DNA of 43,005 bases. It comes from a virus. This document shows positions 3,474 to 37,031 of the stretch, one piece after another. The stretch is taken from positions 1 through 43,005 of the IMG/VR virus record IMGVR_UViG_3300030060_004770; one strand, 5' to 3'. A program made the translations under genes and the position numbers. The notes under the pieces are model-generated. The model saw nothing but the letters and a program-made list of their open reading frames with translations. It searched no databases and was not told where the DNA came from. Position 1 is the first letter of the stretch; each line of letters begins with the position of its first letter.

Positions 3474-4118
3474 TTATAAATTTAAGCTAAACATGCTACC
3501 AATACCTTGATACATTTGTTGTTGCGCTTCTTGGTGTGCTGTTTTAGCGGTACCCAACCTATTAGTAGCCATAGCTAATAACGTATTAGTTTTGTTTTTC
3601 TCTAAAGTTCTTGATTGTTCAGCACCGGCACGTCTTGTCATGTCTGCTTTAAAATCACCTTGTCTTTCTAGTTTTTGTATTTGACCAGCTTGTTCTGCAG
3701 CGGCTCTTTGATTAGCAGATTCTTGCTGTCCTATAGAAGCACTAGCTCTTTGTGTTGCTAACTGACCTTGATTTGCCATAGCTTGTGCTAAACCAGCTAT
3801 ACCACTACTACCAGCTGCACCCGCCATTTGGTTCATTATGTTTGATCTTTGTTGTGCTCCTTGCTGCGCTTCAAACTGAGCTTGTTGTTGATTAACCGTT
3901 AAGTCCTCCATAGTGTTTTGCATGTTAGCATAGGGATTAGATACGTCACCATATAGGTTGCTAGTGTCTAAATTCATAAAAGCTCTCTTTTGAGTATCAT
4001 ATTCATCTTGAGCTTCTGCTATTGCCTTTTTTCTTTTACCTCCCCAGTCATAAGCAGCTAAAGCATCTATAGCTCCACCTATAAGTTTTAAAGGACTATT
4101 TTTATAATTTCTTGCCAT
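3474..4118 (-). CDS. Ala/Gln-rich helical protein, internal virion (DNA ejection) protein candidate
   Basis: A 214-residue protein with strongly biased composition. Residues ~65-165 are rich in Ala, Gln and Gly (QQQAQFEAQQGAQQR, IAGLAQAMANQG). The N-terminus, NYKNSPLKLIGGAIDALAAYDWGG, could form an amphipathic membrane-inserting helix. This profile, together with the position between tail/fibre genes and large internal proteins, resembles T7 gp14-like internal virion or ejection proteins, which form a channel through the envelope during DNA entry. The assignment rests on composition and context because no diagnostic motif exists. It also carries an NSPLK peptide near its start, reminiscent of the SP[LA]K motif in the tagged proteins upstream in the operon. 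Confidence 0.7.
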   Translation of the reverse strand: MARNYKNSPLKLIGGAIDALAAYDWGGKRKKAIAEAQDEYDTQKRAFMNLDTSNLYGDVSNPYANMQNTMEDLTVNQQQAQFEAQQGAQQRSNIMNQMAGAAGSSGIAGLAQAMANQGQLATQRASASIGQQESANQRAAAEQAGQIQKLERQGDFKADMTRRAGAEQSRTLEKNKTNTLLAMATNRLGTAKTAHQEAQQQMYQGIGSMFSLNL

Positions 4119-10100: not shown

Positions 10101-13100
10101 CGTCTGATATCATTTCATCTACATACCAACCTTGTTTTAAATAGTTGTCATAATAATCAGGGTTGTTATTTAAATCAGGTGTTACTCTTGATTGTGTGCC
10201 TTCATAATTTAAAGTTTTAAAACTCTTTATTACGCCAGGCGCTTGATTAAATAAAACATCAACACTAGACTCATATTGAACATTGTAAAAATTATTTCTA
10301 ATTTCATTGTCATGATGTATATATAAATTACCTTCAAAATAAGTATAGTAAGAGTTGTTTAAACTTAAACCACTTTCTTTTATAAAAGATTTAAAACTAA
10401 CCCAACCGTTTGCAGGCTCGTTAAAAGATAACGTCTTAGGCATGTAACCATAACTTGGAGTAATATAACCAGATTTATTTACCTTAGTTAATGTTATATT
10501 ATATTCGTTTTTATTATCATCAAAACTACCAATAATTCTGTTGTAAGAAGGTAGATTATCAGCAAACCAGTCTTTCATACCTAAGTTAGATATTGCTGTT
10601 AACCCGTCTTGAGATAGCCTAACGATAGCACCTCTACTTGTGTCTGCAAAGTAAGATCTATAAGAATCACTTGCAAAGGACTCTGGGTTTTGAGATATAC
10701 CAAAGTCACCAACAAAAGGTCTTATGTTTCCAAGAACTCTATTTGTTGAAACTAAATTTGTATTACCATCAGCATTAAATAAAGCGTCTTTATTAGCTAA
10801 AACTTTTAATACTCTATCTTCACAAAAAGCAACTAAGTCATTATCTCTAACATGCATTTTTTGTATACTACCATAAACAGGGTTTGCATCTTTTGTTATG
10901 GCTTCTGCTTGTATAAACTGGTTTAAATTGTTAACACCACTTTTAGAGTTATATATACCAGACCATATAAAACCACTTTTTCTTCTGTCTTCTAAATAAG
11001 GCTCTTCTAATGTAGTAGATGCTTTTGGTCCATTATCTATAGTAACTTGGTTAAAGTCATCACGTATTCTATCAGACTCAACACCATTACCAAATGAGTA
11101 ACAATTAAACCAAGGTATCTCTATCATTTTACTGTGAACACCAACTTCATCATTAAAAGAGTTGCCAACTAACTCAAACCAAGTACCGTTATTATTATAT
11201 GTACCAACACCAACATGTGCCTCTGTAGTACTTCCGTCTGCTCTGTAGAATATTAAATAAGCACCTGTGGTAGGTAAAATATGTGCAGGGTTGTTAGCGT
11301 CTAAAACATTACCTAAAGTATCTGCTAGCTGAACAAACCTACCATGCGCAGCATAGACTCTAATATCGCTATTACCACCAGCGTTTAAAGATATCGTTCC
11401 AGCGCTGTTACCTATTGGCGGCGCAGGATCCCAACATTGCACGTAAGAGTTTTTAGAAATATCTTCGTGTACAGCACCAACAAACTGCTCTATTGTTCTA
11501 TCGTTTAAGTATATAGGGTATTTATGGCCTACTTCGTAATAAATATCTAAACCAACATCTTCTTTAGGCTCTGTTTCCCATATAGCAGGATTAGTACTAC
11601 TAAATTTACCTTCACCAGGTGTAAAAGGCTCTACTATCTCCCAAGTTACACTACCAGGCGCTGGTGTTATAGCAATGTTATCAGAGCTCCATCTTTTGTA
11701 TTGAGGTATAAGTGTTTCTGTTGTTGAGCCAGTTCCATTGTTCCAAGTCCAGTTACCAGTAGGCTCTGTATAACCAGTATGCATACCGTCAGGTCTAATA
11801 CCAGGCGCTGGATCTACAAAAGCAGCGTTTGTACTAGGGTCTATTGTTATAGCTGTAGCTGTATGATCAAAGTGTGGAGCAAAAGTAGGATTGTTTGTTG
11901 GTAAATAATTATGACCAGTACCACCAAGTGGTATTGTAGAATCACTTAACGTTTCTGCTTTAAACCTAAATCTTCTTCTTTTGTTTTTTGATTTAGCCCA
12001 ATCATCAACAAGGTTAGGAAATTTATAATGCTCAGGATAATTAGGTATAAGTCCCCAAGCGTTTGATCCAGACACATTACCATGAGCGCAACCGCAAGCA
12101 TTAATTAACGCGCCAGTAATAGAACAAGAAATATCAACAATAGCCTGAGCAGCGACTCCACAGGTTGCACAAGTTCCACCACAACAACTTTGAGGAGAAG
12201 TATGATCGCTAATACTTCTTGTAACCCAGTCAGGTTTTGTATCACTTACCGTATATGGTCCAAAAGTCCAACAATATTTAAGTTTATGCTTGTGATTGTT
12301 AATTAAATAATCTGCAAAGCTTACATAATTAAAAAGAACTATACCAGGATTACCATCAAAATCTAAAGCTTCATTAGTCCATTGAGCACTAGTATAAGGA
12401 GTTGATGTTGTAGACAAACCTGTCATTGCTACAGTTTTATATAAAACTTGATCTGGATCTTCTTTCCACCTCCATATAGTACCAGGCGTTAAAAGCTTAC
12501 CTATAAAAAGTTCGTCAGCAGCGTGCTTAGCTGCATCAACAAAATAATGTGTGGTTAGTACATCAGCCCAGTTTCCAGATGTTGCGGTCAAACCACCATC
12601 ATCTTCATTTAAACCTGAATAAGATAAATTTATAATACCACTGTTAGGATCTATACCAACACCAGGTGCTATTGGTCCACCATCAGCAGAAGGAGTTGTT
12701 GCTAGCACACCGTTTGGTGATTTCATTTTTTTTGAACCACTTGAACCTAAATAATTGTTACCTGTAGTTCCGTATGTATTTACGCCTAAAGCGTGTAATC
12801 TTCTATCAAAATAACCATCATCAAAATCATCGTGGTAGCTTGTAAAAAAGCCCCAGCAAGTATTTAATGCCCAAGCGCTTGGTCTATCTATAGCACGCGT
12901 ACTTCTTTCACCCACGGTTTTACCCCAATAATCACCTTTCCAAGGTCTAAAACCTTCTACAGCATCAATAAACCAACCACTAGAAATAGCTAAAGCATTA
13001 GAGTTGTTTGTTGTTGTATCATCACTAGCGTACTTCCAAAAATCTTGACCGTGTCCAGCCGGTGCACTACTACCAGGTCTTGTCCATCTTTCGTCATTAC

Positions 13101-20433: not shown

Positions 20434-21654
20434 TTAATTTTTGTTTTTAATTTTAAACTTAAAATCAGCAGTGTTATCACCTAGCACTTTTACTTTAATT
20501 CCACCAGCTTCAACAACTCCGTGTTGTTGTCTAGGATCCATATTAATATTTTTTCCTTTTTCAACACTTTGTTTTAAAGCATCAGCTTGTCCTTGTTCGT
20601 AAAAATGTTTTGCAATAGCATCAGCGTTCATTGCTGTAAAAAAAGATTTATGATAACCCGCAGCATCTGACATCTCGTTGTTTTTATCAAGAAACTTTCC
20701 TATAAAATTACTTATGTCGCTTTGTGTTTCCTTAACCTTGTTAGCATCTTGAACGTTATACCTAAATTTCTTATCACCAACTTTATATTCAAAACCTTTG
20801 AAATCATCAGTAAAAAGATTATTTGTTTTTTCGTTAAAAATGTTAACACGTTGTTCTACACCTTTTTTAGTTTCTGCCTCTTCTTTTTGATATCTGTTGA
20901 AAAAATCTACAGCTTTTTGTTGCTCTGCCGTAAGTTTGCTTCCAGCTTTGATATCTTCGTAATATTTAGACTTTAGCCCGTCTAGGTGGCTTTTAGCGCT
21001 GGCAACTTGCTCTTTTAACGCTAATTTTTTTCTTTGTATTTCTACCTCATCATCTCTTTGTTCATCAAAAGAAAATTGGTCTTTCATTAAAAAACTAATT
21101 TCTTCACTATTTAAATGAGGTTTTGTTTGTTTATAATACTCTTCTAATAAAGATAGATTATCTAACTCACTATAATCCTGATTTAACTTAACATAATCGC
21201 TTATGTCACCGCCAGTTTCTTTTATAAAGTTAACTAGCTTTTCTACATTTTCAGGTAATGGTTCTTGTTTTTCTACTTGTGGTTCTTCAGCTACTTGCTT
21301 CGTAGGCGTTGGCTTATCTTGTACGCTGTCGGAGACTTTTTCTCCGGTAGGTTTTTCATCTGTTGTTTCGATGATTTCTTCGACCACTTTTTCGCTAGTC
21401 TTGGATTCGTCGCGTACAGGAACCTCATCTGTGCTTTGCTCTGGAACGGCATCTTCTTTTGTTTTAGTTGTTGATAAATCTACTTTTGTTATAGTCGGCT
21501 CGCTTAAATTTTGCGCCGGCATTTTCATTTTTGCTTTAACTTTAGTAACGTTACCTTTAGTTTCGTTACCAACAGGTTGTTTTTCAACCTTTTCTTTTAC
21601 TTTTATTTTACCAACCTCGTTATCTACGATTGGTGTTTCTTTTTTTTCTGCCAT
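20434..21654 (-). CDS. Scaffolding protein candidate (406 aa)
   Basis: A 406-residue, highly charged protein directly upstream of the capsid gene. Residues 1-135 are a disordered Lys/Glu/Pro/Thr/Val-rich segment. Residues ~140-290 are helical and coiled-coil-like (QRKKLALKEQVASAKSHLD, KGVEQRVNIFNEKTNN). The C-terminus is short and basic (FKFKIKNKN). This arrangement, with an acidic flexible N-part, central coiled coil and basic C-tail that can touch the capsid protein, is typical of phage scaffolding proteins, as is the order portal-scaffold-capsid. There is no sequence signature for scaffold proteins, so the call depends on composition and context. Confidence 0.72.
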   Translation of the reverse strand: MAEKKETPIVDNEVGKIKVKEKVEKQPVGNETKGNVTKVKAKMKMPAQNLSEPTITKVDLSTTKTKEDAVPEQSTDEVPVRDESKTSEKVVEEIIETTDEKPTGEKVSDSVQDKPTPTKQVAEEPQVEKQEPLPENVEKLVNFIKETGGDISDYVKLNQDYSELDNLSLLEEYYKQTKPHLNSEEISFLMKDQFSFDEQRDDEVEIQRKKLALKEQVASAKSHLDGLKSKYYEDIKAGSKLTAEQQKAVDFFNRYQKEEAETKKGVEQRVNIFNEKTNNLFTDDFKGFEYKVGDKKFRYNVQDANKVKETQSDISNFIGKFLDKNNEMSDAAGYHKSFFTAMNADAIAKHFYEQGQADALKQSVEKGKNINMDPRQQHGVVEAGGIKVKVLGDNTADFKFKIKNKN

Positions 21655-24104: not shown

Positions 24105-26324
24105 TTATTGTTTAATTATTTTCGACATATTACCCATGTTTGAATATTTAGATATGTGAATATCTAGTTTTGGTTTTTCTACTGTAGCATTTGGTTTGTA
24201 TAAATGTCTATTACAAGCCATAACTGCTAACCCACTACTTATTGTTGCGTCGAACTTTGTTCTTTTTGTTATATCAAATCTTGCCCAATCATTTAAAGTA
24301 CCATTAAAACACATATTACCAAAAGTACCATCACCTCTTATACCAACATGGTCTTGTATATACATTTCAATAGCAGCTGCGTGAGCTTGTTTTATATCTT
24401 CGCTTGAGTTTGGTATACCACCTATTTCTTTTTCAGCAACAGATAGTTTGTTCCAAATTTTATCAGGCCTATTCATGCTAAAACCTCTATAACCTCTACG
24501 TCTTAAATAATATAAAAGTCGAGGTTTATTGTTCTCTGCTAACATTGGCATACCGTAAAAAACTAACGCCATTAAAACATCTTCAAAAAATATATCAGCA
24601 GTTTGTGGTCTAGCTATGTACTCTAAAAAAAACTCATTTGCAGGTGCATCTTCCATGCTAAACTTAGTTAAACCATGTAAAGCACCCTTTGACCCTTTAC
24701 CATCTACAGTTCCTGATATATCATAACTATCACAACCAAACGCACCCATGTGCTCATTACCAGGATATCTTACACCGTTTTTTACAATTATATTGTTTTG
24801 TAAGTTTTGAGGAGGTGTCCAACTTATTTTAAATCTACCTTTTTGATCAGGATAAAATAAAACACTTGTATCTTTTACACCACCAACCCACTGAAAATTA
24901 CCACGAGTAATTCCTAATGTTCTTGACATTTCTTCGTTGTAATCTATTTGTTCGTATATTTTTACTAAGTTAAATATACTGTTTAAAGCTTCATCTCTAA
25001 ACGCATGCTCTTCTGTTTTTGGAAACTGGCGATAAAACTCGTTTAAAGCATCTTGATCGTTTTTTAAACCATCAGCTTCGTTTTGCCAGTGCTCTATAAT
25101 ACCATAATCAATTAGTTCACCGTCTGGGCCGAGTACATCTGTGTCAGGGTTATCAAATACAGGATATCCGTATTCATCAATAAATCCTTCGTAGTTCCAT
25201 TCCATTGGGACAAACAAAGAGTATAAACCAGATTTTGTCTGGCCATTTCTATTTCTTTGTGTGACATCGCTTGCGTTGTAAAGTTTTTTAAAATTGTCTC
25301 CACCTTTATCTAGTGCGTTTGAGGTCGAGCCCATCATACATTTACCAACTATTCTACTACCTAATCGTAAACATGTTTTAGTTACTCGCCAGTTATTTAA
25401 TATGTTATCAGGTCTTTCCCACTTACCACTTTCGTCGTGTACTAGTAAGTTAAGCTTTTCTCCATCATAGCTATTGTCACCTGTGTTTTTCCAATCAATA
25501 GTAGTATCAAGTCCAACCAAGTCTTCCTGCCTTTCGTTTGCAGTAATCTTTTTACGAGTAAACTTACTCGCAGGTACACGGTAAGCAAGTTCAGACTTAG
25601 GTCTGTCCATTCCATCTTGTATCGGTTTAAAGAAAAACGGATAGTTGACAGATATTGGTACAACTTTGTCGGTAAACATTTTTTTAGCATCAGCACCTGT
25701 TTTTGATAATATTCCAAATCTAGCATCACTTGATATTGTTGCTTGATTTACTGTTTCTGCAGAAGACATAAAAGAAAAACCAGAACGTCTGTTTTTAAGG
25801 TAACACATACCATAACATCTTTTATCTGCTTTACAAGCCTCCCAAAATATATAAAATATTCTGTTTGCTTCTCTATAGTCAGGTGCACCTACATCTATTT
25901 TACTCCATTGTAAGTACATATAATGTGTACCTGTTATATATGTTGGTTTATTATTATTCATAAACCAAAAACCTTCTTCTCTACGTTTAAACTCTTCGTC
26001 TATATAATCGAACCATTTATCTTTTGATTCTTCTGGATAAGCTCTCCAATCAAATATATTTTTAAGCTTTGATAATTCTTTTGGATATTCTATTTTTTCC
26101 CACTTGTTGTTTCCGTGCAAATACACTTTTTTCGGTTGAGCTGGCAACCCAATTCGCAAATTTTGAATCTCCACCACTTGTCCAATTTTTCCAGTTTTAG
26201 AGATAACCACGATATCATGTTCTTTATTGTACCCATATTTCCATTTTTTACTTTTGTTAAGCCTATTAATTGTCGTCTTTTTTATAGGCTCTATTATTTT
26301 TATTAATGTTTGCTCGTATTTCAT
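24105..26324 (-). CDS. terL: Terminase large subunit (crAss-like, 739 aa)
   Basis: A 739-residue DNA-packaging motor. The N-terminal segment NKPTYITGTHYMYLQWSKID precedes the ATPase, as in crAss-like terminases. A variant Walker A (KNRRSGFSFMSS, ~residue 180) lacks the GKT triad and is replaced by RRSGFS. Walker B is LLVHDESGKW (~295). The RNase H-like nuclease has motif I GCDSYDISGT (~530), an FFEDVLMALVFYG segment (~575) and motif III KFDATISSGLA (~690). The start overlaps the stop of the small terminase candidate by ATGA, showing coupled translation. The protein cuts the concatemer and drives DNA through the portal encoded next door. Confidence 0.92.
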   Translation of the reverse strand: MKYEQTLIKIIEPIKKTTINRLNKSKKWKYGYNKEHDIVVISKTGKIGQVVEIQNLRIGLPAQPKKVYLHGNNKWEKIEYPKELSKLKNIFDWRAYPEESKDKWFDYIDEEFKRREEGFWFMNNNKPTYITGTHYMYLQWSKIDVGAPDYREANRIFYIFWEACKADKRCYGMCYLKNRRSGFSFMSSAETVNQATISSDARFGILSKTGADAKKMFTDKVVPISVNYPFFFKPIQDGMDRPKSELAYRVPASKFTRKKITANERQEDLVGLDTTIDWKNTGDNSYDGEKLNLLVHDESGKWERPDNILNNWRVTKTCLRLGSRIVGKCMMGSTSNALDKGGDNFKKLYNASDVTQRNRNGQTKSGLYSLFVPMEWNYEGFIDEYGYPVFDNPDTDVLGPDGELIDYGIIEHWQNEADGLKNDQDALNEFYRQFPKTEEHAFRDEALNSIFNLVKIYEQIDYNEEMSRTLGITRGNFQWVGGVKDTSVLFYPDQKGRFKISWTPPQNLQNNIIVKNGVRYPGNEHMGAFGCDSYDISGTVDGKGSKGALHGLTKFSMEDAPANEFFLEYIARPQTADIFFEDVLMALVFYGMPMLAENNKPRLLYYLRRRGYRGFSMNRPDKIWNKLSVAEKEIGGIPNSSEDIKQAHAAAIEMYIQDHVGIRGDGTFGNMCFNGTLNDWARFDITKRTKFDATISSGLAVMACNRHLYKPNATVEKPKLDIHISKYSNMGNMSKIIKQ

Positions 26325-26599
26325 TTTGATCTTCCTTCTGCAAATCCTTTAAATACTCTTTCTTTTTTTTCTTCAGGGTCTTTGCCTTCCAAAATGTTTT
26401 CTTCTTCTTGAATTCTATTAAGTATTTCAAACGCATCAAAGATAGCTAGCTTTTTTGTAGCTGCAGCATTTTTTAATCTATCAGCAGAAACATCATCTTC
26501 TGTGTTAGTAATAATTTTTTCTTTTGCAACGTTGATAAGTTCTTCAACGGCTCTATGCCCAGCTTGGATTATAAGTTTCTTCGTTTCCTTGATATTCAT
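26321..26599 (-). CDS. Terminase small subunit candidate (92 aa)
   Basis: A 92-residue helical protein beginning MNIKETKKLIIQAGHRAVEE, with SADRLKNAAATKKLAIFDAF and a charged C-terminus. It lies immediately upstream of the large terminase with an ATGA overlap, the usual place for the small subunit that binds the packaging site. I chose the ATG at 26597-26599 because an upstream in-frame ATG at 26684 would extend deep into the previous gene and encode sequence unlike a protein N-terminus. With this start the overlap with the upstream Cpn10-like gene is 47 bases. No clear helix-turn-helix was identified, so this is mainly a positional call. Confidence 0.68.
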   Translation of the reverse strand: MNIKETKKLIIQAGHRAVEELINVAKEKIITNTEDDVSADRLKNAAATKKLAIFDAFEILNRIQEEENILEGKDPEEKKERVFKGFAEGRSK

Positions 26600-28778: not shown

Positions 28779-29183
28779 TTATTCTTTTCTATCTCTCATT
28801 ATTTGAGCTTCACGATCAAGTGTTTTAATAGTTGCCTTTAATTTTTTTCTTTTTTTATTAGCTTCTGGACTATTATCTCCTTCTAAATCCATTAAATCGT
28901 TTTGCTCTAAATAACCAGCTCTATTGTCATAATCAATAATTCTTTCTCGTTTTACAAAATCACTTCCAACATTTTTTTCGTCAGCTTTCATTTCTGCTAT
29001 ACCTTCTTTTGGATCATCACCTTTATAACCTCTACCATATATCCAAGTGCCTTCATTTTCACCTGGCTGTAATTTTATATTTTGCTCAGGTATTGGCCCT
29101 TGCATTGGACCGTCTTTTTTCTTTTTATCTTTTTTAGCTGGTGAGTTACCGTAGCCACTAAAGCCCTTCATTTTATATCCCAT
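28779..29183 (-). CDS. Tagged basic protein with MGYKMKG...SPAK N-terminus (134 aa)
   Basis: A 134-residue hydrophilic protein beginning MGYKMKGFSGYGNSPAKKDKKKK. It is charged throughout and ends in a helical Lys/Arg/Glu segment (KKRKKLKATIKTLDREAQIM). I chose the ATG at 29181-29183 because it gives the same MGYKMKG start as the gene at 29870 and avoids the preceding gene. A longer in-frame start at 29246 would overlap that gene by 53 bases. Function is unknown. The N-terminal peptide links it to the other tagged proteins of this operon. Confidence 0.7.
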   Translation of the reverse strand: MGYKMKGFSGYGNSPAKKDKKKKDGPMQGPIPEQNIKLQPGENEGTWIYGRGYKGDDPKEGIAEMKADEKNVGSDFVKRERIIDYDNRAGYLEQNDLMDLEGDNSPEANKKRKKLKATIKTLDREAQIMRDRKE

Positions 29184-29193
29184 GTTTTTATTT

Positions 29194-29562
29194 TTAATGT
29201 TTTTCCCATGGAAAATTTTTACTGCCTTCTGGCATCCATTTTCCATCGTATAATATGTATCCGTTTTCTCTTGGGTAATTTTGACCGTCCCATGTTATAT
29301 CATTGTCTGTATACTTAAGCCTACCTATTTTCATATCTGTTAGATGTTTCATTTCGTGAGTAAGTATTTCAGATTCTTCTTGACTACCAGGTGTTACATC
29401 TACACTAATAAATATTGTACCGTCATCATTAGCCTCACCTTGTATATCTTTACCTAATTCTTTTCTAAATAAAGGTGTGCCTGGCGCAGCTTCCTCTGTG
29501 TGGTTAGGGAACTTTAGTGTTCTAACCTTGCTATGTGTTTGTTTTGGTAGTTTAAAAGCCAT
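29194..29562 (-). CDS. Small putative zinc metallopeptidase (HExxH, 122 aa)
   Basis: A 122-residue protein starting MAFKLPKQTHSKVRTLKFPN. It has the zincin signature THEMKHLTDM at residues 68-77 (H69, E70, H73), on a helix preceded by an acidic strand segment (TIFISVDVTPGSQEESEIL). Downstream come YTDNDITWDGQNYPR and EGSKNFPWEKH. The fold is short for a peptidase and a third zinc ligand was not assigned. I recall similar small HExxH proteins in other marine phages. The MAFKL start places it with the tagged family. It could be a virion-packaged or assembly protease, or a structural zinc domain that has lost activity. Confidence 0.7.
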   Translation of the reverse strand: MAFKLPKQTHSKVRTLKFPNHTEEAAPGTPLFRKELGKDIQGEANDDGTIFISVDVTPGSQEESEILTHEMKHLTDMKIGRLKYTDNDITWDGQNYPRENGYILYDGKWMPEGSKNFPWEKH

Positions 29563-29564
29563 TT

Positions 29565-29870
29565 TTATAATCCTTCCATGTTATCTAAGTCACCTGTTTT
29601 AGAAACTATGTCTTGCACGTTCATTGCTTGAGCATTGTCTTTTTCTTCATCAGGATTGTAATCGCCAGCTTCTTTTCTTGCTGTAAACTTACTCATTACG
29701 TCTTTAGCTCCTTGGTGAACCCCTCTAGCAACAGTAGCCCAACCTGGTTCTCTATAATCAAGCTCTACGCTATCAAGATTTTTTTGAGCGTCAACTAGTG
29801 CTGAATCACTAACTTTAGCTGGAGACTTTTTCTTGCCAAAAAAAGTTGGCCCTTTCATTTTATATCCCAT
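29565..29870 (-). CDS. Tagged protein with MGYKMKG...SPAK N-terminus (101 aa)
   Basis: A 101-residue protein whose start, MGYKMKGPTFFGKKKSPAK, parallels the start of the gene at 29183. The remainder is hydrophilic and helical (DSALVDAQKNLDSVELDY) with an acidic end. It shows no catalytic motif, membrane segment or Cys. Only the first ~20 residues are shared with the other family members, so the peptide, not the body, is the common element. It is packed between the winged-helix gene and the HExxH gene with spacings of one to two bases. Confidence 0.7.
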   Translation of the reverse strand: MGYKMKGPTFFGKKKSPAKVSDSALVDAQKNLDSVELDYREPGWATVARGVHQGAKDVMSKFTARKEAGDYNPDEEKDNAQAMNVQDIVSKTGDLDNMEGL

Positions 29871-29871
29871 A

Positions 29872-30312
29872 TTATCTATCTTTATCTTTAATCATATCGT
29901 CTATAGCTTTGTTATAAACTTTATCTGTATATGATTCGTTATTGTAAAAAATACTTCGTTCAGATGTTGGTAAATCTTCTTCACCTAAAAGTATTCTGTA
30001 TATTCTACTTATCATTTGACCACATTTAAAAGATGTTTTAAACACAGAGTATTTTATACTAGTTCTGTTTCTGTGTCTCCATACTTCTATCCAACCATCT
30101 CTTCGTAGTCTTTCCCAACGGTTTTTGTCCCATGAATATGTATAAGTACCGTCTAAAAACTCTTGTCGTGTAAATCTTTTTTTACAATCTAAATAAATTA
30201 ATAATTCTAAATCTGCATCTTTTAACCCGTAAGTTTTACAGACCCACTTTCTAGTGAGCCTGTAATACTTAAGGATATTCATATCACGCAAATCTTGCGC
30301 GGTTAGTCTCAC
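29872..30312 (-). CDS. MarR-like winged-helix protein (146 aa)
   Basis: A 146-residue basic protein with a winged-helix look. Helices come from KYYRLTRKWVCKTYGLKDAD and LELLIYLDCKKRFTRQEFLD, a recognition-helix region is WDKNRWERLRRDGWIEV, and a basic wing is WRHRNRTSIKYSVFK. The C-terminal helices could dimerise. This is the MarR-type layout, in which a helix-turn-helix senses or represses. In a late operon it could regulate late transcription or bind packaged DNA. I remember this protein type in other marine phages. The call is from pattern only. Confidence 0.6.
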   Translation of the reverse strand: MRLTAQDLRDMNILKYYRLTRKWVCKTYGLKDADLELLIYLDCKKRFTRQEFLDGTYTYSWDKNRWERLRRDGWIEVWRHRNRTSIKYSVFKTSFKCGQMISRIYRILLGEEDLPTSERSIFYNNESYTDKVYNKAIDDMIKDKDR

Positions 30313-30315
30313 TTA

Positions 30316-30651
30316 TTATACTGCGTAAGTAATACCAGCACAAGCTGTAATACCAGACTTTGCTAGGTAGATACCATTTTCTTCGTCAGCTATAACGATA
30401 AAAGGCTCTTTCATAGTACCAACAGCAGTAATTGCTTCAACTACAGCTTTTACAGATGCTTTTTCATCAGTACCAACAGTCAACTCAACTCTATCAGTAG
30501 CGTCACCAGCAGCAACGTCAGTAAGTCTTTGAGGACTAAAGTACAAGTGAATAGCTCCGTTAGCAGTGTCAATACCTCTAAGTGCTTCTAATGGGTAGCA
30601 CGTAGCATCGTTAGCAGCTAATGAGAAATACAAAAATTTTTTTGCTTCCAT
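30316..30651 (-). CDS. Conserved small late protein, possibly structural (111 aa)
   Basis: A 111-residue protein that appears compact and beta-rich (KKFLYFSLAANDATCYPLEA, NGAIHLYFSPQRLTDVAAGD, EPFIVIADEENGIYLAK). Its codon choice is less A/T-extreme than its neighbours, as for the capsid gene, suggesting high expression. I cannot name the family. It lies between groES and the winged-helix gene. A 70-base A/T-rich gap precedes it, the largest gap between coding regions in this stretch and possibly holding its own leader or promoter. Confidence 0.7.
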   Translation of the reverse strand: MEAKKFLYFSLAANDATCYPLEALRGIDTANGAIHLYFSPQRLTDVAAGDATDRVELTVGTDEKASVKAVVEAITAVGTMKEPFIVIADEENGIYLAKSGITACAGITYAV

Positions 30652-30721
30652 GTTCTTTTTTTTTAATAGTTAATAATTTGTTTTATGTTTTGTGTTTAAG
30701 GTTTAAGGATTATGGTTTTGG

Positions 30722-30979
30722 TCAATCTATTAGTACCACGTCACCAGATCTGATAACTTGGTATAATATATCTTTATATTGTACACCGTGTCCGGCGTGT
30801 TTATCGTAATATACGATATCGTTATCTTTTATACCTTCAACTAAATTACCAGTTGAAATTACTTTAGCCTTTATATACCTATTGTCATCATCTATATTTT
30901 CAGTCAATATAAGTCCAGCTACTTTTTTAGGCTCTATTTTTATGTTTTCTACTATTATGTAATTGTTAACTGCTTTCAT
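30722..30979 (-). CDS. groES: GroES-like co-chaperonin (85 aa)
   Basis: An 85-residue Cpn10. It has MKAVNNYIIVENIKIEPKK, the mobile loop with its hydrophobic tripeptide in VAGLILTENI (LIL; IVL in E. coli), KAKVISTGN, the GIKDNDIVYYDKHAGH strand and turn, and the C-terminal GDVVLID. It is about ten residues shorter than bacterial GroES. The heptameric lid would close the GroEL cavity encoded just upstream. Its start lies inside the end of groEL (14-base overlap), so the two are co-translated. Here groEL precedes groES, the reverse of the usual bacterial order. Confidence 0.85.
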   Translation of the reverse strand: MKAVNNYIIVENIKIEPKKVAGLILTENIDDDNRYIKAKVISTGNLVEGIKDNDIVYYDKHAGHGVQYKDILYQVIRSGDVVLID

Positions 30980-32531
30980 TGATTCTCATATTTGAAATTA
31001 CACAATTAGCAGACATTATAGTAGTTACAACAGAAACGGAATTTTTAAGTGCAGATTTAGTAACAAGCACAGGATCTATAATTCCAGCGTCTACCATATT
31101 AACGCTTTGTCCAGTTACAACATTTACACCTAACCCCTGCTTTGGCCTTGGCGCTATTTGCTCAAGACCAGCATTTTCAAGCACGGTGTCAAAAGGAGCA
31201 CGTATAGCACTCAATAATATTTTTTCACCTATATTTTCTGCTTTTATATCCTGAGACGCATTTAACAACGCTACACCACCACCTGGCACAATACCTTCTT
31301 GTAACGCTGCTTTTGTAGCATATATTGCATCTTCAACTCTATCTTTCTTTTCTTTTAACTCAACTTTAGAGTTAGCACCAACTTTTACCATACCAACACT
31401 ACCAGATAACATAGCAAGTCTTTGTTGGTGTTTTTTCTTAATAAAAGGGTTTTTATCTTCTTTGTCAATTAACTTTTGTATAGAGTTAATTCTTTCTTGT
31501 AGTTCTTGATCTGGAGCTTCAATAGTTAAAACAGTGTTCTTATCATCTGTGATAGCTGTGTTCGCTTCACCTAAACAGTCTATGTCTATTAAATCAAGAT
31601 CATCACCTAATTCTTCGTTTATTACTTTAGCTCCAGCCAAAAACGCTAAATCCTCACAAGTATCGTTTTTAGTAGGACCAAAGCCTGGTAAATCAACTAT
31701 ATTAACCTTAATGTTACCTTTTACCTTGTTCATTAGTAAAGCAGCTTTAACTTGCTGCTCAACTGGAGCAACTATCAATAACGACCTTTTGTTTTTTATA
31801 ACATGCTCTAATACTTTTTGTATACGTCTAATATTAGGTATTTCTGACATAACGATCAATACTAACGGATTATCAAGCTCACAGACTTGTTTATCTTTAT
31901 CAGTAACAAAATGTGGAGATGTGAGTCCTGAGTCTATCTGCACGCCGTCTACAATTTCAACGTATGTTTCTTCAGTTGGTGACTCTTCCATTAATACCAC
32001 ACCATCTTTACCTACTTTAGAATAAGCTTCTGCTATAATCTTTCCTAGTTCGTTATCATTGTTACAACTAATCGAACTAACAGATTCCAGCATATCGCCC
32101 TCGATCTTGACAGAAATCTTATTAAGGTAGTCATTTATTTTTTTAAGACCTGAATATATACCGTCTTTTATTTCTCTTACAGTAGATTCTTCATTAAGAC
32201 TAACTTGTTTTAACAAAGACTCAGCAAGCACAGTAGCTGTTGTTGTGCCATCACCTGCTTCTCTCACTGTGTTTCTAGCAGCTTCTTTTATAAGGGTTGC
32301 ACCCATATTTTCGACCGGATCATATAAGACTACGCTTTCTGCCACGGTTACACCATCTTTTGTAATCACCGGGTTACCTCGTGCGTCTTCATATATAACA
32401 CATTTACCACTAGCGCCCAAGGTTGATTTTACTGCTTTTGCAAGTTTTTCCACACCTGCATGTATTTTACTTTTTGCAAGATCATCAAAGGTCAAATCCT
32501 TGACAATCTCACTAGGTTGATTGATCTCCAT
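30966..32531 (-). CDS. groEL: GroEL-like chaperonin (521 aa)
   Basis: A 521-residue group I chaperonin. Equatorial nucleotide-binding motifs are intact: LGASGKCVIYED, ITKDGVTVAESV and GDGTTTATVLAES (residues 93-105), and near the C-terminus EGIVPGGGVALLNAS. The apical domain includes EIPNIRRIQKVLEHV. It is slightly shorter than bacterial GroEL (about 540-548) and ends NMRINESS without the usual Gly-Met-rich tail inside the cavity. That tail loss is common in divergent chaperonins. With the overlapping groES it forms a phage-encoded folding machine that may fold capsid or tail proteins in a host whose own chaperonin is unsuitable. Confidence 0.93.
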   Translation of the reverse strand: MEINQPSEIVKDLTFDDLAKSKIHAGVEKLAKAVKSTLGASGKCVIYEDARGNPVITKDGVTVAESVVLYDPVENMGATLIKEAARNTVREAGDGTTTATVLAESLLKQVSLNEESTVREIKDGIYSGLKKINDYLNKISVKIEGDMLESVSSISCNNDNELGKIIAEAYSKVGKDGVVLMEESPTEETYVEIVDGVQIDSGLTSPHFVTDKDKQVCELDNPLVLIVMSEIPNIRRIQKVLEHVIKNKRSLLIVAPVEQQVKAALLMNKVKGNIKVNIVDLPGFGPTKNDTCEDLAFLAGAKVINEELGDDLDLIDIDCLGEANTAITDDKNTVLTIEAPDQELQERINSIQKLIDKEDKNPFIKKKHQQRLAMLSGSVGMVKVGANSKVELKEKKDRVEDAIYATKAALQEGIVPGGGVALLNASQDIKAENIGEKILLSAIRAPFDTVLENAGLEQIAPRPKQGLGVNVVTGQSVNMVDAGIIDPVLVTKSALKNSVSVVTTIMSANCVISNMRINESS

Positions 32532-32562
32532 ATTATATTAAATTAAATTTGATTAAATTATT

Positions 32563-33621
32563 TTATTGATCTTTTTTATAATCTCTTTTGTCGTAGTTTT
32601 TACCAACGTTACCTTTTTTATCTTTTCTTACATTTTCACCTTTAACGTTTGTTCTACCTTGTATTTTATATTTATTTTTTACTTTATCTCTTTTACTTCT
32701 TGTTTTATTACTTTTCTTATTAAGTTTGTTTGATTGTTTGTTTAGCTTGTCAATTTGTTTTTGCAAGTCTTTGTACTCTTTAGAGTTTACATCCGTTATT
32801 TTGTCTCTTTGAGTTGTTAAATCACTTACGTAAGAATCTATTTCTTTCTTTTCGTTTTGATAATTTTCAATCTTTATATTAGCTCTGTTTTTCTTACCTT
32901 CTTGCTTGTCTAAGTACTTTTGTCTATTTTTAGCTCTTTTGCTTAACCTGTCTGCTATAAGATCTTGTTTACGTTCAACAGAAACACCGCTAGCTATATC
33001 ACCACCCATTAACATATTTTTCCAATCAAACTTTAAACCAAAACCTCCTTCACCTTTTGCTCTTTGGTATTTATCAGCAAGCTTTTGTGTTTTATCAGAA
33101 TATTTTTCAGCTTTAGTTCTTTTCTTACCACCATCTGAGTCATAAGCTTTGCTGTTAAGCTTTCTTTGCTTAGCGTCTAAATTTATTTGTGTTTTAGTTT
33201 TATATTTGTTTATATTGCCATCAAACCTTGTACCATCAGCTAATTTTCCATCTTCACCGTAATCGTAACCACCTTCACCAACATCTGTCTTAACAGAGGC
33301 GTCTTTACCAGATATATTAGTAATTTTACCAGTTTCTGGATCAACATCACCATCTGGACCTTTTTTAACATTTTTCATCGTAGCTGTTTCAGCTTTTACA
33401 TCTTCGTTCCAAGGTGTTGTTTCTTGTAGTCTTTTTTCTTCAGCAGCTTTTTTCTTTTTGTAGTCTAACTCGTCTTGAAGTTTATCAACTTTTGTTTGCG
33501 TAGTCCTTTTGTTTATATCGTCAGCTGGATTGCCTAAACCATCATCGTGATTATCTTTTAATGGCGAACTACCCATATGTTTAAATTTAGGAGAATTTCC
33601 TGATCTTAGTTTAAATGTCAT
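32563..33621 (-). CDS. Tagged Lys-rich coiled-coil protein (352 aa)
   Basis: A 352-residue, extremely charged protein. The start, MTFKLRSGNSPKFKHMGSSP, carries the long form of the shared tag. Residues ~195-320 form a continuous Lys/Asp/Gln-rich coiled coil (KQDLIADRLSKRAKNRQKYL, KQIDKLNKQSNKLNKKSNK). The C-terminus is basic. A segment DVDPETGKITNISGKDA is also present. There is no membrane segment or Cys. Function is unknown. Its basic nature would suit binding DNA inside a capsid. It lies upstream of groEL, separated by 31 bases. Confidence 0.72.
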   Translation of the reverse strand: MTFKLRSGNSPKFKHMGSSPLKDNHDDGLGNPADDINKRTTQTKVDKLQDELDYKKKKAAEEKRLQETTPWNEDVKAETATMKNVKKGPDGDVDPETGKITNISGKDASVKTDVGEGGYDYGEDGKLADGTRFDGNINKYKTKTQINLDAKQRKLNSKAYDSDGGKKRTKAEKYSDKTQKLADKYQRAKGEGGFGLKFDWKNMLMGGDIASGVSVERKQDLIADRLSKRAKNRQKYLDKQEGKKNRANIKIENYQNEKKEIDSYVSDLTTQRDKITDVNSKEYKDLQKQIDKLNKQSNKLNKKSNKTRSKRDKVKNKYKIQGRTNVKGENVRKDKKGNVGKNYDKRDYKKDQ

Positions 33622-33622
33622 A

Positions 33623-34633
33623 TTAACTTATATATTGTGAGCCGCCAAAATCATCTTGTACTTCAAAACCTCCCCCACCAGGTGTTTCTTGCGCGACATT
33701 GTTAAATATTGTTTTCATATCTTTTTTAGATAACTTTTTGTTAAAGCCATGAGGGTGTTTTTTATCATCACCAAAAAACGTAAACACTTCGTAAGGTATA
33801 CCTTTTTCTTTGTAATTTTCAGCTGTAACACCTTCCATCATTTCTTCTACAGCTTTAGCGTGTTTGTTAGTAAACTCCTCACCAGAAAAAGCATCGAATA
33901 TGCCTTCTTTTTGTAAAAAGTTTTGAGCTACCTTGTATCTAGCATAAACTTCTTGTGGTTTAGATAATTCATTATCTCCACCTCCTTTAGCTTCATGCAA
34001 TAAATTTTTAGTACCTTCTAGCATACCGTACTCTCCAGCTGTTACAGCGTGAGCACCTTCATGTATGTTTAGATCGTGTAATCTATTTTTTTGACTACCA
34101 TCATTAAAATATCTTTCTTGATAATAAATATTTGCACCTGGCATTAATCTATTATTAGTACTAGTTTTCATAATATTATCAGCATGAGCGTAGTCTATGT
34201 AATTACCTTCTTTGTCATAAGTGCTAGGTGCGTTAAATATAGTATTATCTAATCTACTTGTTCTGTCTTCAATTACATTACCATCTTTAGCATCAACTCT
34301 AACTATAGATCTTCCTTTATCTTTTTTTAATTCTTTTTCGTTTGGCGCTCTTAAGTATTCTGTATTATCTTCGTTCATTGCTATTTCATTAGCAAGTCTT
34401 TTTTTGTAACCTTCAGACTGTAAGTCTTGTCTTAGCCAGTCAGCACCACTTCCACCTTTTGGATCTATTATAGAACCGTCACTAGTTTGTTTATTCCACT
34501 CTTTTTCGTTCTTTTTATCTTGTTTTTTTGATATAAATGGAGATGACTTTGTTCTACTTGGCGTTACTGGACGTGAAGAACTGCCCAACGACTTAAATCT
34601 TGCTTGATTTCCTGATCTTAATTTAAACGCCAT
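33623..34633 (-). CDS. Tagged putative zinc metallopeptidase (HEGAH, 336 aa)
   Basis: A 336-residue protein starting MAFKLRSGNQARFKSLGSSS, then a basic Ser/Pro/Lys-rich linker with KSSPF. The core carries NIHEGAHAVTAGEYG (H191, E192, H195), a zincin HExxH on a predicted helix, followed by GTKNLLHEAKG and ELSKPQEVYARYKVAQNF, which contain possible third ligands. A YYQERYFND segment precedes it, and the C-terminus is Gly-rich. The layout resembles small phage zincins whose targets are unknown. The protein may process capsid or tail proteins (no prohead protease was found in the window), act on the host envelope, or be inactive. It is the first gene after an intrinsic terminator. Confidence 0.72.
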   Translation of the reverse strand: MAFKLRSGNQARFKSLGSSSRPVTPSRTKSSPFISKKQDKKNEKEWNKQTSDGSIIDPKGGSGADWLRQDLQSEGYKKRLANEIAMNEDNTEYLRAPNEKELKKDKGRSIVRVDAKDGNVIEDRTSRLDNTIFNAPSTYDKEGNYIDYAHADNIMKTSTNNRLMPGANIYYQERYFNDGSQKNRLHDLNIHEGAHAVTAGEYGMLEGTKNLLHEAKGGGDNELSKPQEVYARYKVAQNFLQKEGIFDAFSGEEFTNKHAKAVEEMMEGVTAENYKEKGIPYEVFTFFGDDKKHPHGFNKKLSKKDMKTIFNNVAQETPGGGGFEVQDDFGGSQYIS

Positions 34634-34640
34634 ATATTTT

Positions 34641-34672
34641 TTTTAAAAAAGGGGAGATTTTACTCCCCTTTT
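34641..34672 (-). terminator. Intrinsic terminator after the 97-residue gene
   Basis: AAAAGGGGAG and CTCCCCTTTT form a perfect 10-pair stem around a 6-base loop. On the minus strand a run of seven Ts continues directly from the stem, a classical Rho-independent terminator. It lies 4 bases past the stop of the upstream gene and just ahead of the HEGAH gene start, so it separates the first four genes of the late block from the rest. Confidence 0.85.
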
Positions 34673-34676
34673 GTTA

Positions 34677-34970
34677 TTAACTAAATGTTTTTACAACTTT
34701 TGGGCCTTTTACAGCATCTAATTTTTTAGAGAAATGGTCAATACTGCCATCAATTGCAGCTTCTGCACCTTCTATGGTTTCTCTACGCGTAACATCGTGC
34801 CAACTTTCCTTGTTTTCTGGCTCAGAACACTCCGTTTGGTAAAAACCATTAGGTAATTGTGTTATTCGCCAGTTAGATTTGTCAGCTAAATGCTTCCACT
34901 GGTTAATAGTTTGTTCATTCGGTTTAATATTGCTAGTATACGTACTAGTCTTGTAGTATAAGTAAGTCAT
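34677..34970 (-). CDS. Conserved small protein, function unknown (97 aa)
   Basis: A 97-residue protein with WRITQLPNGFYQTECSEPEN and ESWHDVTRRETIEGAEAAID, then a helical end with VKGPKVVKTF. I recall this family from other marine phages, where it is always of unknown function. It is a compact domain without the basic bias or N-terminal tag of its neighbours, so it may have a different job. It is followed at once by an intrinsic terminator, which makes it the last gene of the first late transcription unit. Confidence 0.75.
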   Translation of the reverse strand: MTYLYYKTSTYTSNIKPNEQTINQWKHLADKSNWRITQLPNGFYQTECSEPENKESWHDVTRRETIEGAEAAIDGSIDHFSKKLDAVKGPKVVKTFS

Positions 34971-35000
34971 TTTGGTTTTATTTTTGGTTAATACTTATGG

Positions 35001-35019
35001 TATAGGGTCTTTCCCTATA
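35001..35019. terminator. Short hairpin downstream of the PTKKMH-repeat gene
   Basis: TATAGGG and CCCTATA form a 7-pair stem with a 5-base loop, beginning 3 bases past the stop of the repeat protein gene. On the minus strand no T-run follows, so termination would be weak. It may instead protect the 3' end of the message or be neutral. Confidence 0.4.
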
Positions 35020-35021
35020 TT

Positions 35022-35606
35022 TTAATTCATCATTTTGTCAACAGCCTTGCCAGCAACTTTTCCAGCTATAGCTTTTCCAGCCATAGCCACTAAAGGTGCT
35101 ATTTTAGCAGGAGATTTTTTGTGCATTTTTTTAGTAGGTGAATGCATTTTTTTAGTTGGAGCACCTTTACCGCCGTCTTCTTTGCTAGCGTGAACAGCTT
35201 TTCTCTGTGCAGCAGACTTATATCCTTTTGCTGGAGAGTCATGCATCTTCTTAGTTGGTGATTTATGCATTTTCTTAGTTGGAGAGTCATGCATTTTCTT
35301 CGTAGGCGCATCATGCATTTTCTTAGTTGGAGCTTTATGCATCTTTTTTGTAGGAGAATCATGCATTTTTTTCGTCGGAGCGTCGTGCATCTTCTTTGTT
35401 GGTGCATCGTGCATCTTTTTAGTAGGTGCATCGTGCATTTTCTTTGTAGGTGCAGAGTCAACTGCTGCCTTAAACTTTGGGTTACCGTCTAATTTACCAG
35501 CTTTTGATGCTGCTTTTAGACCTTTGTTGAATTTTGAAGGTGACGATGCTCTTTGTTTTATACCTGGAAGCGTGTGTCCCTTCATTTTAAAAGGTGTATA
35601 TGCCAT
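35022..35606 (-). CDS. Lys/His-rich PTKKMH-repeat protein (194 aa)
   Basis: A 194-residue very basic protein. It starts MAYTPFKMKGHTLPGIKQRA with SSPSK, a variant of the shared tag. Residues 51-124 hold nine tandem copies of an octad, [DKS][AS]PTKKMH. Two further copies occur at ~149-163, and SPAK peptides at 124-127 and 165-168. The C-terminus is a small-residue amphipathic segment (VAMAGKAIAGKVAGKAVDKM). Such Lys/Pro repeats resemble histone H1 tails and suggest nucleic-acid or capsid-interior binding. Met-His pairs could bind metal ions. The function is not known. It is expressed as part of the four-gene unit ending at the terminator near 34660. Confidence 0.75.
   Translation of the reverse strand: MAYTPFKMKGHTLPGIKQRASSPSKFNKGLKAASKAGKLDGNPKFKAAVDSAPTKKMHDAPTKKMHDAPTKKMHDAPTKKMHDSPTKKMHKAPTKKMHDAPTKKMHDSPTKKMHKSPTKKMHDSPAKGYKSAAQRKAVHASKEDGGKGAPTKKMHSPTKKMHKKSPAKIAPLVAMAGKAIAGKVAGKAVDKMMN
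35235..35456 (-). repeat. 24-base in-frame tandem repeats coding PTKKMH octads
   Basis: Nine 24-base units in one reading frame encode the octad with D/K and A/S as the variable residues. Synonymous third-base differences between units (for example several forms of the PTK codons) show that selection maintains the peptide and that the array is not a very recent duplication. The units are contiguous, with no unique spacers. Confidence 0.85.
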
Positions 35607-35618
35607 TTTTGTTGTTTT

Positions 35619-36146
35619 TTAGTTATAATAATCTTGTTTTTCTTTTTCAGTCATTTTTTCTAGCTCTTCTTTGCTGTGATCAGCACCTGGAAAAGCTGGT
35701 GACCAATTTTCTCTATGTTTTTTTATTGCTATTTCCTCTGCTCTTTTCTTAGTAATTGGTCCTAAGTCCTTTTCTTTTGCTTTTGTTTGTGCTTTTGTTA
35801 AAACAGTAGCTCTTTTTGAAGCTTTGTTTTTGCTTCTAGCTTTTTCTGTAGCCGCTTTACGTCCACTAGCATCAGGATCGTTAGTTGTTTTAGTAGGTTT
35901 ATCACTACCCGGCTCATTTTTGTATTTGTTGTACTCTTGTTTAGTCACCTTTTTACTACCAATTTTATACCAGTAGTCACTAGATTTAGCATGACTATGC
36001 TTATTTGGAGAAGTACTTTTTTTATTTTTTATTTTCATAGCGCCTCCAGTTACCGCGCCCGCGACTGCAGCTGCGGCACCTTTTGCTATTGCAGTACCCA
36101 TGTTTTTAAAGCTTGGTTTGTTTCCAGATCTTAATTTAAATCCCAT
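35619..36146 (-). CDS. Tagged Lys/Ala-rich protein (175 aa)
   Basis: A 175-residue protein starting MGFKLRSGNKPSFKNMGTAI. A Gly/Ala-rich hydrophobic segment follows (AKGAAAAVAGAVTGGAM, residues ~21-37), then STSPNKHSHAKSSDYWYKIG and a long Lys-rich helical tail with TKAKEKDLGPITKKRAEEIAI. The C-terminus is NWSPAFPGADHSKEE. The small-residue segment could be a membrane-interacting or packing helix. Apart from the first ~17 residues, it shares little with its neighbours. Function is unknown. Confidence 0.72.
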   Translation of the reverse strand: MGFKLRSGNKPSFKNMGTAIAKGAAAAVAGAVTGGAMKIKNKKSTSPNKHSHAKSSDYWYKIGSKKVTKQEYNKYKNEPGSDKPTKTTNDPDASGRKAATEKARSKNKASKRATVLTKAQTKAKEKDLGPITKKRAEEIAIKKHRENWSPAFPGADHSKEELEKMTEKEKQDYYN

Positions 36147-36149
36147 AGT

Positions 36150-37031
36150 TTATTTTTTATTTTTAGGTATTGGTTTACCTTGTTTTTTCCAAATAGCTTT
36201 ACCTTTAGCATCTAAATCCTCATATCTAACAATATCTTCACGTTGTTTCTTTAAAAACCTTATATCTTTTCTAGTATAGCTTTTTGGATATTTCTTTTTT
36301 TTCTTTTTATCTTTAGGCTTAGACTTTTGTTTTGCTGGAGAACTTTTCTTTTCTTTTACCTTGGCCTCATCTTCTCTCATTTTCTTACCTTTTTCAGAGT
36401 CTTCTCTTATCTCATCAATAGTTCTGTATTCATCAGTACCTTCGTAAGTTGGTTGATCATCTTGCGTTACAACTTTTTTTCTATCTTTTTTACCTTTATC
36501 TGCGTCTGCTCTTATTTGGTCGATGCTTCTATATTCATCTGTCCCTTCGTATGTAGGGTCTTGCCTATCTTCAGTATCAGAAGGTTTTTTAGTTTTCTTT
36601 TTACTCTTAGGGTCTTTTAACTTACTATCAAACTTAGCTGGTGATTCTGGCTTTAAATCATCTATTTGTCCTGTGTGTAGTTTACCGCTACTAGTCATAA
36701 AGTATTTCTTACCATTAGGATCTGTAACATAGTGTCCTTTTACACCACCATCAGTTGTATATGCCTTGCCTTTCTTCCAACCTTTACTAGCATCGAACTT
36801 AGGTCCTACGCTGCTTTTCTTAGGTTTTTGCTTTTTAGGATCTTTTAACTTACTATCAAGATGACCAGTTCTTGCGCCGTCTTTAATCATTTGATCAGCA
36901 TCACGTTGAGTGAAACCTTCATTTAATAAATCTTCTTTTGTTTTCTTTCCATCTGTAGCTTTTAACAGAGGAGAACTGCTACCCATCATCTTGAAGTTAG
37001 GCTTATTTCCAGATCTTAGTTTGAATCCCAT
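36150..37031 (-). CDS. Tagged Lys-rich protein with internal duplications (293 aa)
   Basis: A 293-residue protein and the first gene of the late block. It starts MGFKLRSGNKPNFKMMGSSS, followed by PLLKA. Two internal duplications are visible: LDSKLKDPKKQKPKK versus FDSKLKDPKSKKKTKK, and PTYEGTDEYRSIDQIRADAD versus PTYEGTDEYRTIDEIREDSE. Other parts are Lys-rich and disordered, with SPAK peptides at two sites. A segment, KGWKKGKAYTTDGGVKGHYV followed by TDPNGKKYFMTS, looks like a small folded module. It is the nearest late gene to the divergent spacer, so the late promoter should lie directly upstream of it. No enzymatic motif was recognised. Confidence 0.73.
   Translation of the reverse strand: MGFKLRSGNKPNFKMMGSSSPLLKATDGKKTKEDLLNEGFTQRDADQMIKDGARTGHLDSKLKDPKKQKPKKSSVGPKFDASKGWKKGKAYTTDGGVKGHYVTDPNGKKYFMTSSGKLHTGQIDDLKPESPAKFDSKLKDPKSKKKTKKPSDTEDRQDPTYEGTDEYRSIDQIRADADKGKKDRKKVVTQDDQPTYEGTDEYRTIDEIREDSEKGKKMREDEAKVKEKKSSPAKQKSKPKDKKKKKKYPKSYTRKDIRFLKKQREDIVRYEDLDAKGKAIWKKQGKPIPKNKK

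Follow-up and report, generated by a model that had tools for sequence, protein, structure and literature searches.

Genes sharing an N-terminal peptide in the window

The stretch of DNA analysed here (IMGVR_UViG_3300030060_004770), referred to as the window, is a virus record of 43,005 bases and represents a fragment of a marine phage genome with a crassvirus-type tail. An earlier note made from its sequence had described a short N-terminal peptide, hereafter the tag, which was shared by otherwise unrelated late proteins. The tagged genes, the octad repeat, the putative scaffold end, TerL, EJ2 and the muzzle-like gene located below all lie on the minus strand. Four genes carried a long form of the tag, M-x-FKLRSGN…FK.[ML]G, in which FKLRSGN forms residues 3–9, and the starts (37031, 36146, 34633 and 33621) and sequences reported for them were correct. 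The tag of gene 36150–37031 is located at 36957..37031 (MGFKLRSGNKPNFKMMGSSSPLLKA) and is followed by a Lys-rich body with internal SPAK motifs, while that of gene 35619–36146 is located at 36072..36146 (MGFKLRSGNKPSFKNMG). The tag at 34559..34633 begins gene 33623–34633, an HExxH protein containing HEGAH, and the tag at 33547..33621 begins gene 32563–33621, which encodes a Lys-rich coiled-coil protein. A degenerate DNA pattern for FKLRSGN gave exactly four matches in the record, all at these four gene starts, and the reversed pattern, used as a control, gave none in the record. The GSS and SP residues described after the long tag were also found.

A short form, FKMKG…SPxK, was observed at starts 35606 (MAYTPFKMKGHTLPGIKQRASSPSK), 29870 (MGYKMKGPTFFGKKKSPAK) and 29183 (MGYKMKGFSGYGNSPAK). 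The first of these, at 35526..35606, belongs to the HTLPGI class (FKMKGHTLPGIKQRASSPSK) and begins gene 35022–35606, which has homologues in loci L271 and L267. The same gene contains an octad repeat array, [S/A]PTKKMH[D/K], with nine copies of 24 nucleotides (35239..35454). The array is an expansion of the SPxK motif, and its copy number differs in a near-identical sister contig (159 vs. 194 residues), which makes it length-variable. The tag of gene 29565–29870 spans 29811..29870, and a tag of the FSGF class (MGYKMKGFSGYGNSPAKK; 29130..29183) begins gene 28779–29183, for which the start at 29183 is plausible, as the note had it; the mechanical start of this open reading frame (ORF) is 29246. 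A small HExxH metallopeptidase at 29194..29562, containing HEMKH, starts with MAFKL. The body types were as originally described.

The tag across related viral contigs

Related sequences were collected with degenerate DNA patterns. The FKLRSGN pattern identified 80 viral contig stretches, with the match beginning an ORF in about half of them, and a FKMKGSP pattern identified 85 more. Several tag classes were distinguished, namely RSGNxPxFKxMGSSPxK, SPMQRNFGIGSPxKQ, SPHKxGTIQGTSxHxSALKQ, HTLPGINQ, FSGFGNSPAKQ and STFYGHGNSSPAK, and a single contig carried up to nine tagged proteins. The earlier note had proposed that the N-termini be aligned. The alignment of 136 non-redundant tagged proteins held over the first ∼25 residues only, with the consensus MAFKMKGxxxPxxxxxxGxxSPxK, and the mean column identity over the whole alignment was 5%. 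The tag region itself was predicted to be disordered.

The position of the tag was highly specific. Among the 1176 late ORFs of the window and related records, 85 had the motif [FY]K[LMIV][RK][SG] starting within the first 12 residues; from residue 120 onward the same motif occurred four times in 23,735 twelve-residue bins. Counted over the first 40 residues, the motif appeared 88 times, where 0.8 occurrences were expected, and the early strand had none. Codon positions 1–2 of the tag were essentially fixed and position 3 varied freely, demonstrating that selection acts on the peptide. The bases upstream of tagged genes differed little from those of untagged late genes.

The bodies behind the tag were diverse, with 140 of them falling into 89 BLAST clusters. 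Homology along the whole protein, which the earlier note had named among the observations that would speak against a shared signal, was found in 0 of 184 within-genome tagged pairs. Homologous bodies were, furthermore, observed behind different tags: L343:17714 and L254:6876 shared 51% over 102 columns (QRNFNIG vs. HALPGINQ), and L311:1894 and L254:8692 shared 58% over 160 columns (GTHKTKN vs. KRNFGIG). Some bodies occurred elsewhere with no tag at all. Scans of the 136 tagged proteins against PHROG, Pfam and NCBIfam revealed almost no known domain (DUF5872, DUF6321 and a few unknown PHROGs). Short tblastn searches of GenBank phages with three tag consensus peptides returned nothing, a weak negative given that a 22–27-residue query at partial identity exceeds E = 10, and a literature search for FKMKG, FKLRSGN or KMKGSP found no paper that mentions the motif.

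Two of the bodies were also seen in other settings. The DUF6321 body (a Pfam match) and a second widespread small basic body were found behind the tag as well as behind other N-termini rich in SP (L290:6756–7250, L324:4487–4942).

Linkage to one TerL lineage and to the late strand

The occurrence of the tag followed a single packaging lineage, for which TerL (phrog_6681; 24105..26324 in the window) served as the marker. It was encoded by all 34 tag-bearing contigs tested and by none of 41 control contigs that had the same DNA pattern and no N-terminal tag. In the window and the relatives read, which were contigs selected by the tag, 87 of 87 tagged genes were on the TerL (late) strand; all genes together divided 1176:408, with 26% on the other strand (p about 6e-12). 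When loci were selected by TerL instead, every tag found was again on the TerL strand (MxFK[LM] starts, 29 vs. 0 in the viral set). The proposal that all tagged genes form one late operon thus held for the strand and failed for the single block, since 74 of the 87 genes lay upstream of TerL, at most 15 kb away, and the other 13 lay downstream of it in the relatives. Some of them were beside the ejection-protein module, including two directly beside the predicted ejection protein EJ2 in contig G012. Taken together, the tag is real, non-random, modular, lineage-restricted and conserved at the protein level.

The PHROG families of TerL, the portal, the major capsid protein and two further virion proteins of the window are common to flavobacterial podoviruses. 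The closest named relatives were MW202828 (TerL 64%), the Flavobacterium elemoviruses and Cellulophaga phages such as phi38:1 (Pervagoviridae). A GenBank phage search with two window proteins gave no match. The host is probably a member of the Bacteroidetes, as indicated by the named relatives and by contigs from metagenome-assembled genomes (MAGs), about half of which are in Bacteroidetes bins.

Two further features of these genomes were recorded. The window has two GroES-like genes (26553–27134 and 30722–30979), one adjoining GroEL and the other a small terminase-like gene, and both are conserved in relatives. In the 79-kb contig G004, an early gene block that includes DNA ligase is present twice in diverged form (L267:1–11000, L290:12500–19494), reflecting either a duplication or a chimeric assembly.

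The ejection module and the composition of tagged proteins

The tail region of the window includes a crassvirus-muzzle-like protein (7198..15753; Pfam crAss_MUZ, E 7e-16; crAss_MUZ_C, E 6e-9). It is followed by two smaller genes, EJ2 (3474–4118), a middle gene and a giant gene that is incomplete at the window end. EJ2 is a conserved alanine/glutamine-rich protein and a predicted ejection protein. Its profile matched phi38:1 gp99 and elemovirus gp23 (hhalign probability 95, E 4e-8), both of which are annotated as structural, the only stated basis of the phi38:1 labels being similarity to another phage. Sequence searches found no solved relative of EJ2.

The SPxK part of the tag extended to this module. 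Within the first 40 residues, SPxK was observed 77 times among late proteins against 5 expected (∼15-fold) and once among early proteins against 0.9. It was present in 13 of 59 N-termini of the ejection module, comprising EJ2 and the next two genes, compared with 2 of 489 in the core families (p = 6e-12, a nominal value because homologous genes are not independent). In the window, EJ2 starts with MARNYKNSPLK, where SPLK forms residues 8–11 (4086..4097). The 3858-residue protein of contig G005 starts with MIKIKSPLKHK, the 3909-residue protein of G033 with MIKNLKSPLKQ, and EJ2 of G020 with MYKQKGSTFYN...FKARGGVSPMK.

The tagged bodies were also distinguished by their composition. Their median isoelectric point was 9.7, lysine made up 17% of residues and 95% of them were cysteine-free; the cysteine-free share and median isoelectric point were 52% and 5.2 for other late proteins, and 23% and 6.1 for early proteins. 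Per 1000 residues, cysteine numbered 0 in the putative scaffold (0 in 11,641 residues), 0.7 in tagged proteins and 0.9 in the giant ejection protein, as compared with 4.7 in the major capsid protein, 9.8 in TerL, 9.9 in GroEL, 12 in the tail and 16 in early proteins. The low cysteine content therefore groups the tagged proteins with the prohead interior and the ejection set. Equally low values were seen in a few small late families (TerS-like, gp27465). In phi38:1, the equivalent region encodes two lysine-rich, cysteine-free proteins (gp069 and gp080) that are annotated as structural.

Other observations were made in the tail and ejection genes. The 2851-residue muzzle-like protein (7198–15753) has a C-terminal Hint/pretoxin-HINT domain of the self-splicing type at residues ∼2710–2849, which is unusual for a tail protein. 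A small GNAT-like gene lies directly before EJ2 in several relatives (L293:11712–12164, L306:17319–17741, L005:15202–15612) and may encode a further cargo or a modifying enzyme. Some EJ2 homologues (L280:11729–12694, L301:7604–8485) possess an extra C-terminal domain (RLKKNIKHIG...GVMSDEIP) that by eye resembles the S74-type chaperone/peptidase domain of tail fibres.

The HExxH proteins

The small HExxH protein (29194–29562) was present in nearly all contigs and served as an internal control. Across 22 aligned homologues, F3 and K4 were nearly invariant and the catalytic core was conserved, and residues ∼6–25 varied in length and sequence. Its AlphaFold model (predicted local distance difference test, pLDDT, 76) presented a disordered N-terminus at residues 1–22 (pLDDT ∼41) and a folded core. 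The nearest solved folds were minigluzincins (selecase and abylysin; probability 0.93–0.97, E about 0.2), and the likeness of this small peptidase core to them is only suggestive. That FK is retained in a flexible segment preceding the enzyme is what an address peptide predicts. For the 336-residue HExxH protein (33623–34633), the AlphaFold model was of low quality (pLDDT 46) and was set aside.

A similar element in the putative scaffold

The gene between the portal and the major capsid protein (20434–21654) encodes an acidic protein with no cysteine and is the putative scaffold. In the window its C-terminus, DFKFKIKNKN (20434..20466), contains an FK-x-K element resembling the tag. Among the putative scaffolds, 21 of 31 had FK-[hydrophobic]-K/R in the last 25 residues (0.9 expected), a typical end being SDFKFKIKNKK, compared with 1 of 419 unassigned late proteins. 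Outside the tagged proteins, a terminal element of this kind was nearly confined to the putative scaffold among the late families. In tag-poor relatives, the element lay close to the N-terminus of the scaffold (EGDFKLKKKK); MFKMKLEG begins the scaffold of the elemovirus.

Interpretation of the tag

The earlier note had regarded the tag as a sorting signal, possibly one that targets ejected cargo to the capsid. This interpretation is partly supported: the evidence is good for a sorting signal shared by diverse late proteins, and not for ordinary paralogy, a translation leader or chance, while an address to the capsid interior or for ejected cargo is the best explanation on indirect evidence. 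The explanation that we consider likely is that the tag is a modular procapsid cargo-loading tag, addressing proteins to the capsid interior as cargo for ejection. This reading is favoured because the tag is confined to one packaging and virion lineage and to the late strand, the bodies are basic and cysteine-free, SPxK is found on predicted ejection proteins and not on core proteins, and FK-x-K recurs at the scaffold terminus. The virion location, the ejection and the receptor are what we infer from these sequence patterns.

On this model the tag would be a short flexible peptide, with FK-[M/L]-K/R in the first ∼10 residues and usually S-P-x-K no later than about residue 25. Late proteins with otherwise unrelated bodies would be guided by it into the procapsid while the head is assembled. 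The candidate cargo comprises small basic cysteine-free proteins, HExxH peptidases, and coiled-coil and repeat proteins, which would be packaged with the DNA and then ejected into the next host. The tag may dock where the FK-x-K terminus of the scaffold binds, in a partial mimicry of the scaffold, and the receptor would most likely be whatever that terminus binds, either the inner face of the coat protein or the portal. That the tag copies the docking peptide of the scaffold is a tentative proposal, which we rate at about one chance in three. Its fuller form, held just as tentatively, is that the tag is a natural scaffold mimic, in which FK-x-K imitates the terminal peptide that attaches the scaffold to coat or portal. 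Any protein that gained ∼25 residues could then be co-assembled, and the recombining tag classes would serve these phages as a plug-in system through which diverse and rapidly changing effectors are injected into marine Bacteroidetes.

Several observations weigh against the cargo-loading explanation. Even among close relatives the tag is unevenly distributed: when loci were selected by TerL and a slightly looser tag pattern was applied, 7 of the 20 loci that extended at least 5 kb upstream had strict or near-strict tags, and none of 12 MAG loci did. The named phages phi38:1, the elemovirus, MW202828 and PhicrAss001 all lack it, so that cargo in the wider group does not depend on it; from its distribution, it seems to be restricted to this uncultured clade. 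Few proteins of the ejection module carry FKMKG in full; SPxK is the part that they share with the tag, and the best full case is EJ2 of G020. Basic disordered proteins are often cysteine-poor for other reasons, and the lines of evidence for an interior location are partly correlated. The scaffold match comprises four residues in one homologous family, from a gene that is only a putative scaffold, and may be a coincidence.

The alternatives were weighed against the same observations. Ordinary paralogy, in which one ancestral family kept a conserved N-terminal domain and its bodies diverged past recognition, would account for the clustering of tagged genes in the late block, some of them adjacent, and for tags that can be near-identical in DNA within one genome. 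We regard it as very unlikely, as none of the within-genome pairs had homologous bodies, the bodies include a metallopeptidase family, DUF6321, a coiled coil and repeats, and homologous bodies stand behind different tags or none; moreover, the conserved part is ∼25 residues, predicted to be disordered, and not a domain. A translation-initiation or mRNA leader effect, with conservation at the level of DNA or RNA, would fit the position at gene starts and the A-rich upstream regions typical of these phages. It is, however, disfavoured by the codon variation, with third positions free and positions 1–2 fixed, by upstream bases little different from those of untagged late genes, and by the absence of the tag from early genes, and we attach hardly any weight to it.

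If the tag instead bound the exterior of the capsid or tail, so that the tagged proteins were surface decoration, a shared late strand and a shared head lineage would also be expected, but the basic cysteine-poor bodies resemble internal proteins, and neither SPxK on ejection-module proteins nor FK-x-K at the scaffold terminus would be anticipated, which renders this reading unlikely. An SPKK-like nucleic-acid-binding element, through which the proteins would be packaged or would act by binding phage DNA, accords with the very basic bodies and the repeated SPxK in some of them. In SPKK of the histone H1 type, x would be a basic residue; here x was hydrophobic or small (A, L, V, I or M) and almost never K/R, with K once in 102 N-terminal cases. 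The [ST]PKK counts (8 vs. 4.9 and 3 vs. 10.4 expected) showed no overall enrichment, TPxK was likewise not enriched overall, and FK-x-K is start-anchored and also found in a folded peptidase. The residue preference at x thus disfavours this DNA-binding reading, which we judge improbable. Lastly, the tag could address another late process, such as recognition of GroEL/GroES clients, membrane or lysis targeting, or proteolytic turnover, and GroEL/GroES do sit among the tagged genes. This appears a slim prospect, given that the elemovirus and MW202828 have GroEL/GroES and no tag, that no hydrophobic signal is present, and that SPxK on ejection proteins would be left unexplained.

Should the cargo-loading explanation be true, the tag would provide a sequence handle for predicting which proteins are injected and act early in a marine phage group that is abundant and uncultured; hardly any of these proteins has a recognisable domain. 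The tag could then also be used as a ready-made peptide with which to load proteins into phage heads.

Comparison with known systems

In P22, the basic C-terminus of the scaffold binds the coat N-arm, binding is lost when 11 residues are removed, and cargo becomes encapsulated when it is fused to the scaffold C-terminus (PMC9965877, PMC9962691). A short basic coat-binding terminus thus loads fused cargo, an arrangement of which the FK-x-K in both scaffold and tag would be a naturally occurring form. The two systems differ in that there is no homology, the binding partner here is predicted, and the tag is N-terminal, whereas the scaffold element here is mostly C-terminal.

The closest case in virion architecture is PhicrAss001, in which the virion cargo proteins gp45–gp47 are encoded just after the muzzle gene (PMC10172136). 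In the window, the muzzle-like gene is followed by a cysteine-poor module close to the position of the crassvirus cargo genes; however, the N-termini of gp45–gp47 have neither FKMKG nor SPxK, and no common short tag is described there. In the giant phage SPN3US, N-terminal propeptides of head and ejection proteins have been proposed to target the prohead (PMC7411985), and they resemble the tag as N-terminal extensions with a proposed prohead address. They are, however, about 110–130 residues long and cleaved by a T4-like protease, compared with about 25 residues here.

The closest case in logic is the capsid targeting sequence (CTS) of T4. This short peptide begins basic internal proteins whose bodies diverge (IPI, IPII, IPIII and Alt), suffices to package foreign proteins and is cleaved after packaging (PMC9026906, PMC7697877). 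The analogy drawn in the earlier note stands in its logic and not in sequence or cleavage motif: the T4-type acidic cleavage site (hydrophobic-x-Glu) was not in the tag consensus, where Glu formed only 1.8% of residues, and no gp21-type prohead protease was recognised in PHROG and Pfam scans of most late proteins of the window, the genome being a fragment. The tag further differs in its phage lineage and in its several classes with added SPxK, and packaging here is predicted. The tag may therefore work like a CTS and is not classed as one. The likeness lies in a short N-terminal peptide common to otherwise unrelated proteins, as was found here, which in T4 lets the phage load varied proteins that are small, basic and head-internal; the tagged proteins described here are basic and cysteine-free by sequence. 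If the cargo-loading explanation is true, the tag would represent an independently evolved counterpart of T4 capsid targeting in crassvirus-tailed phages.

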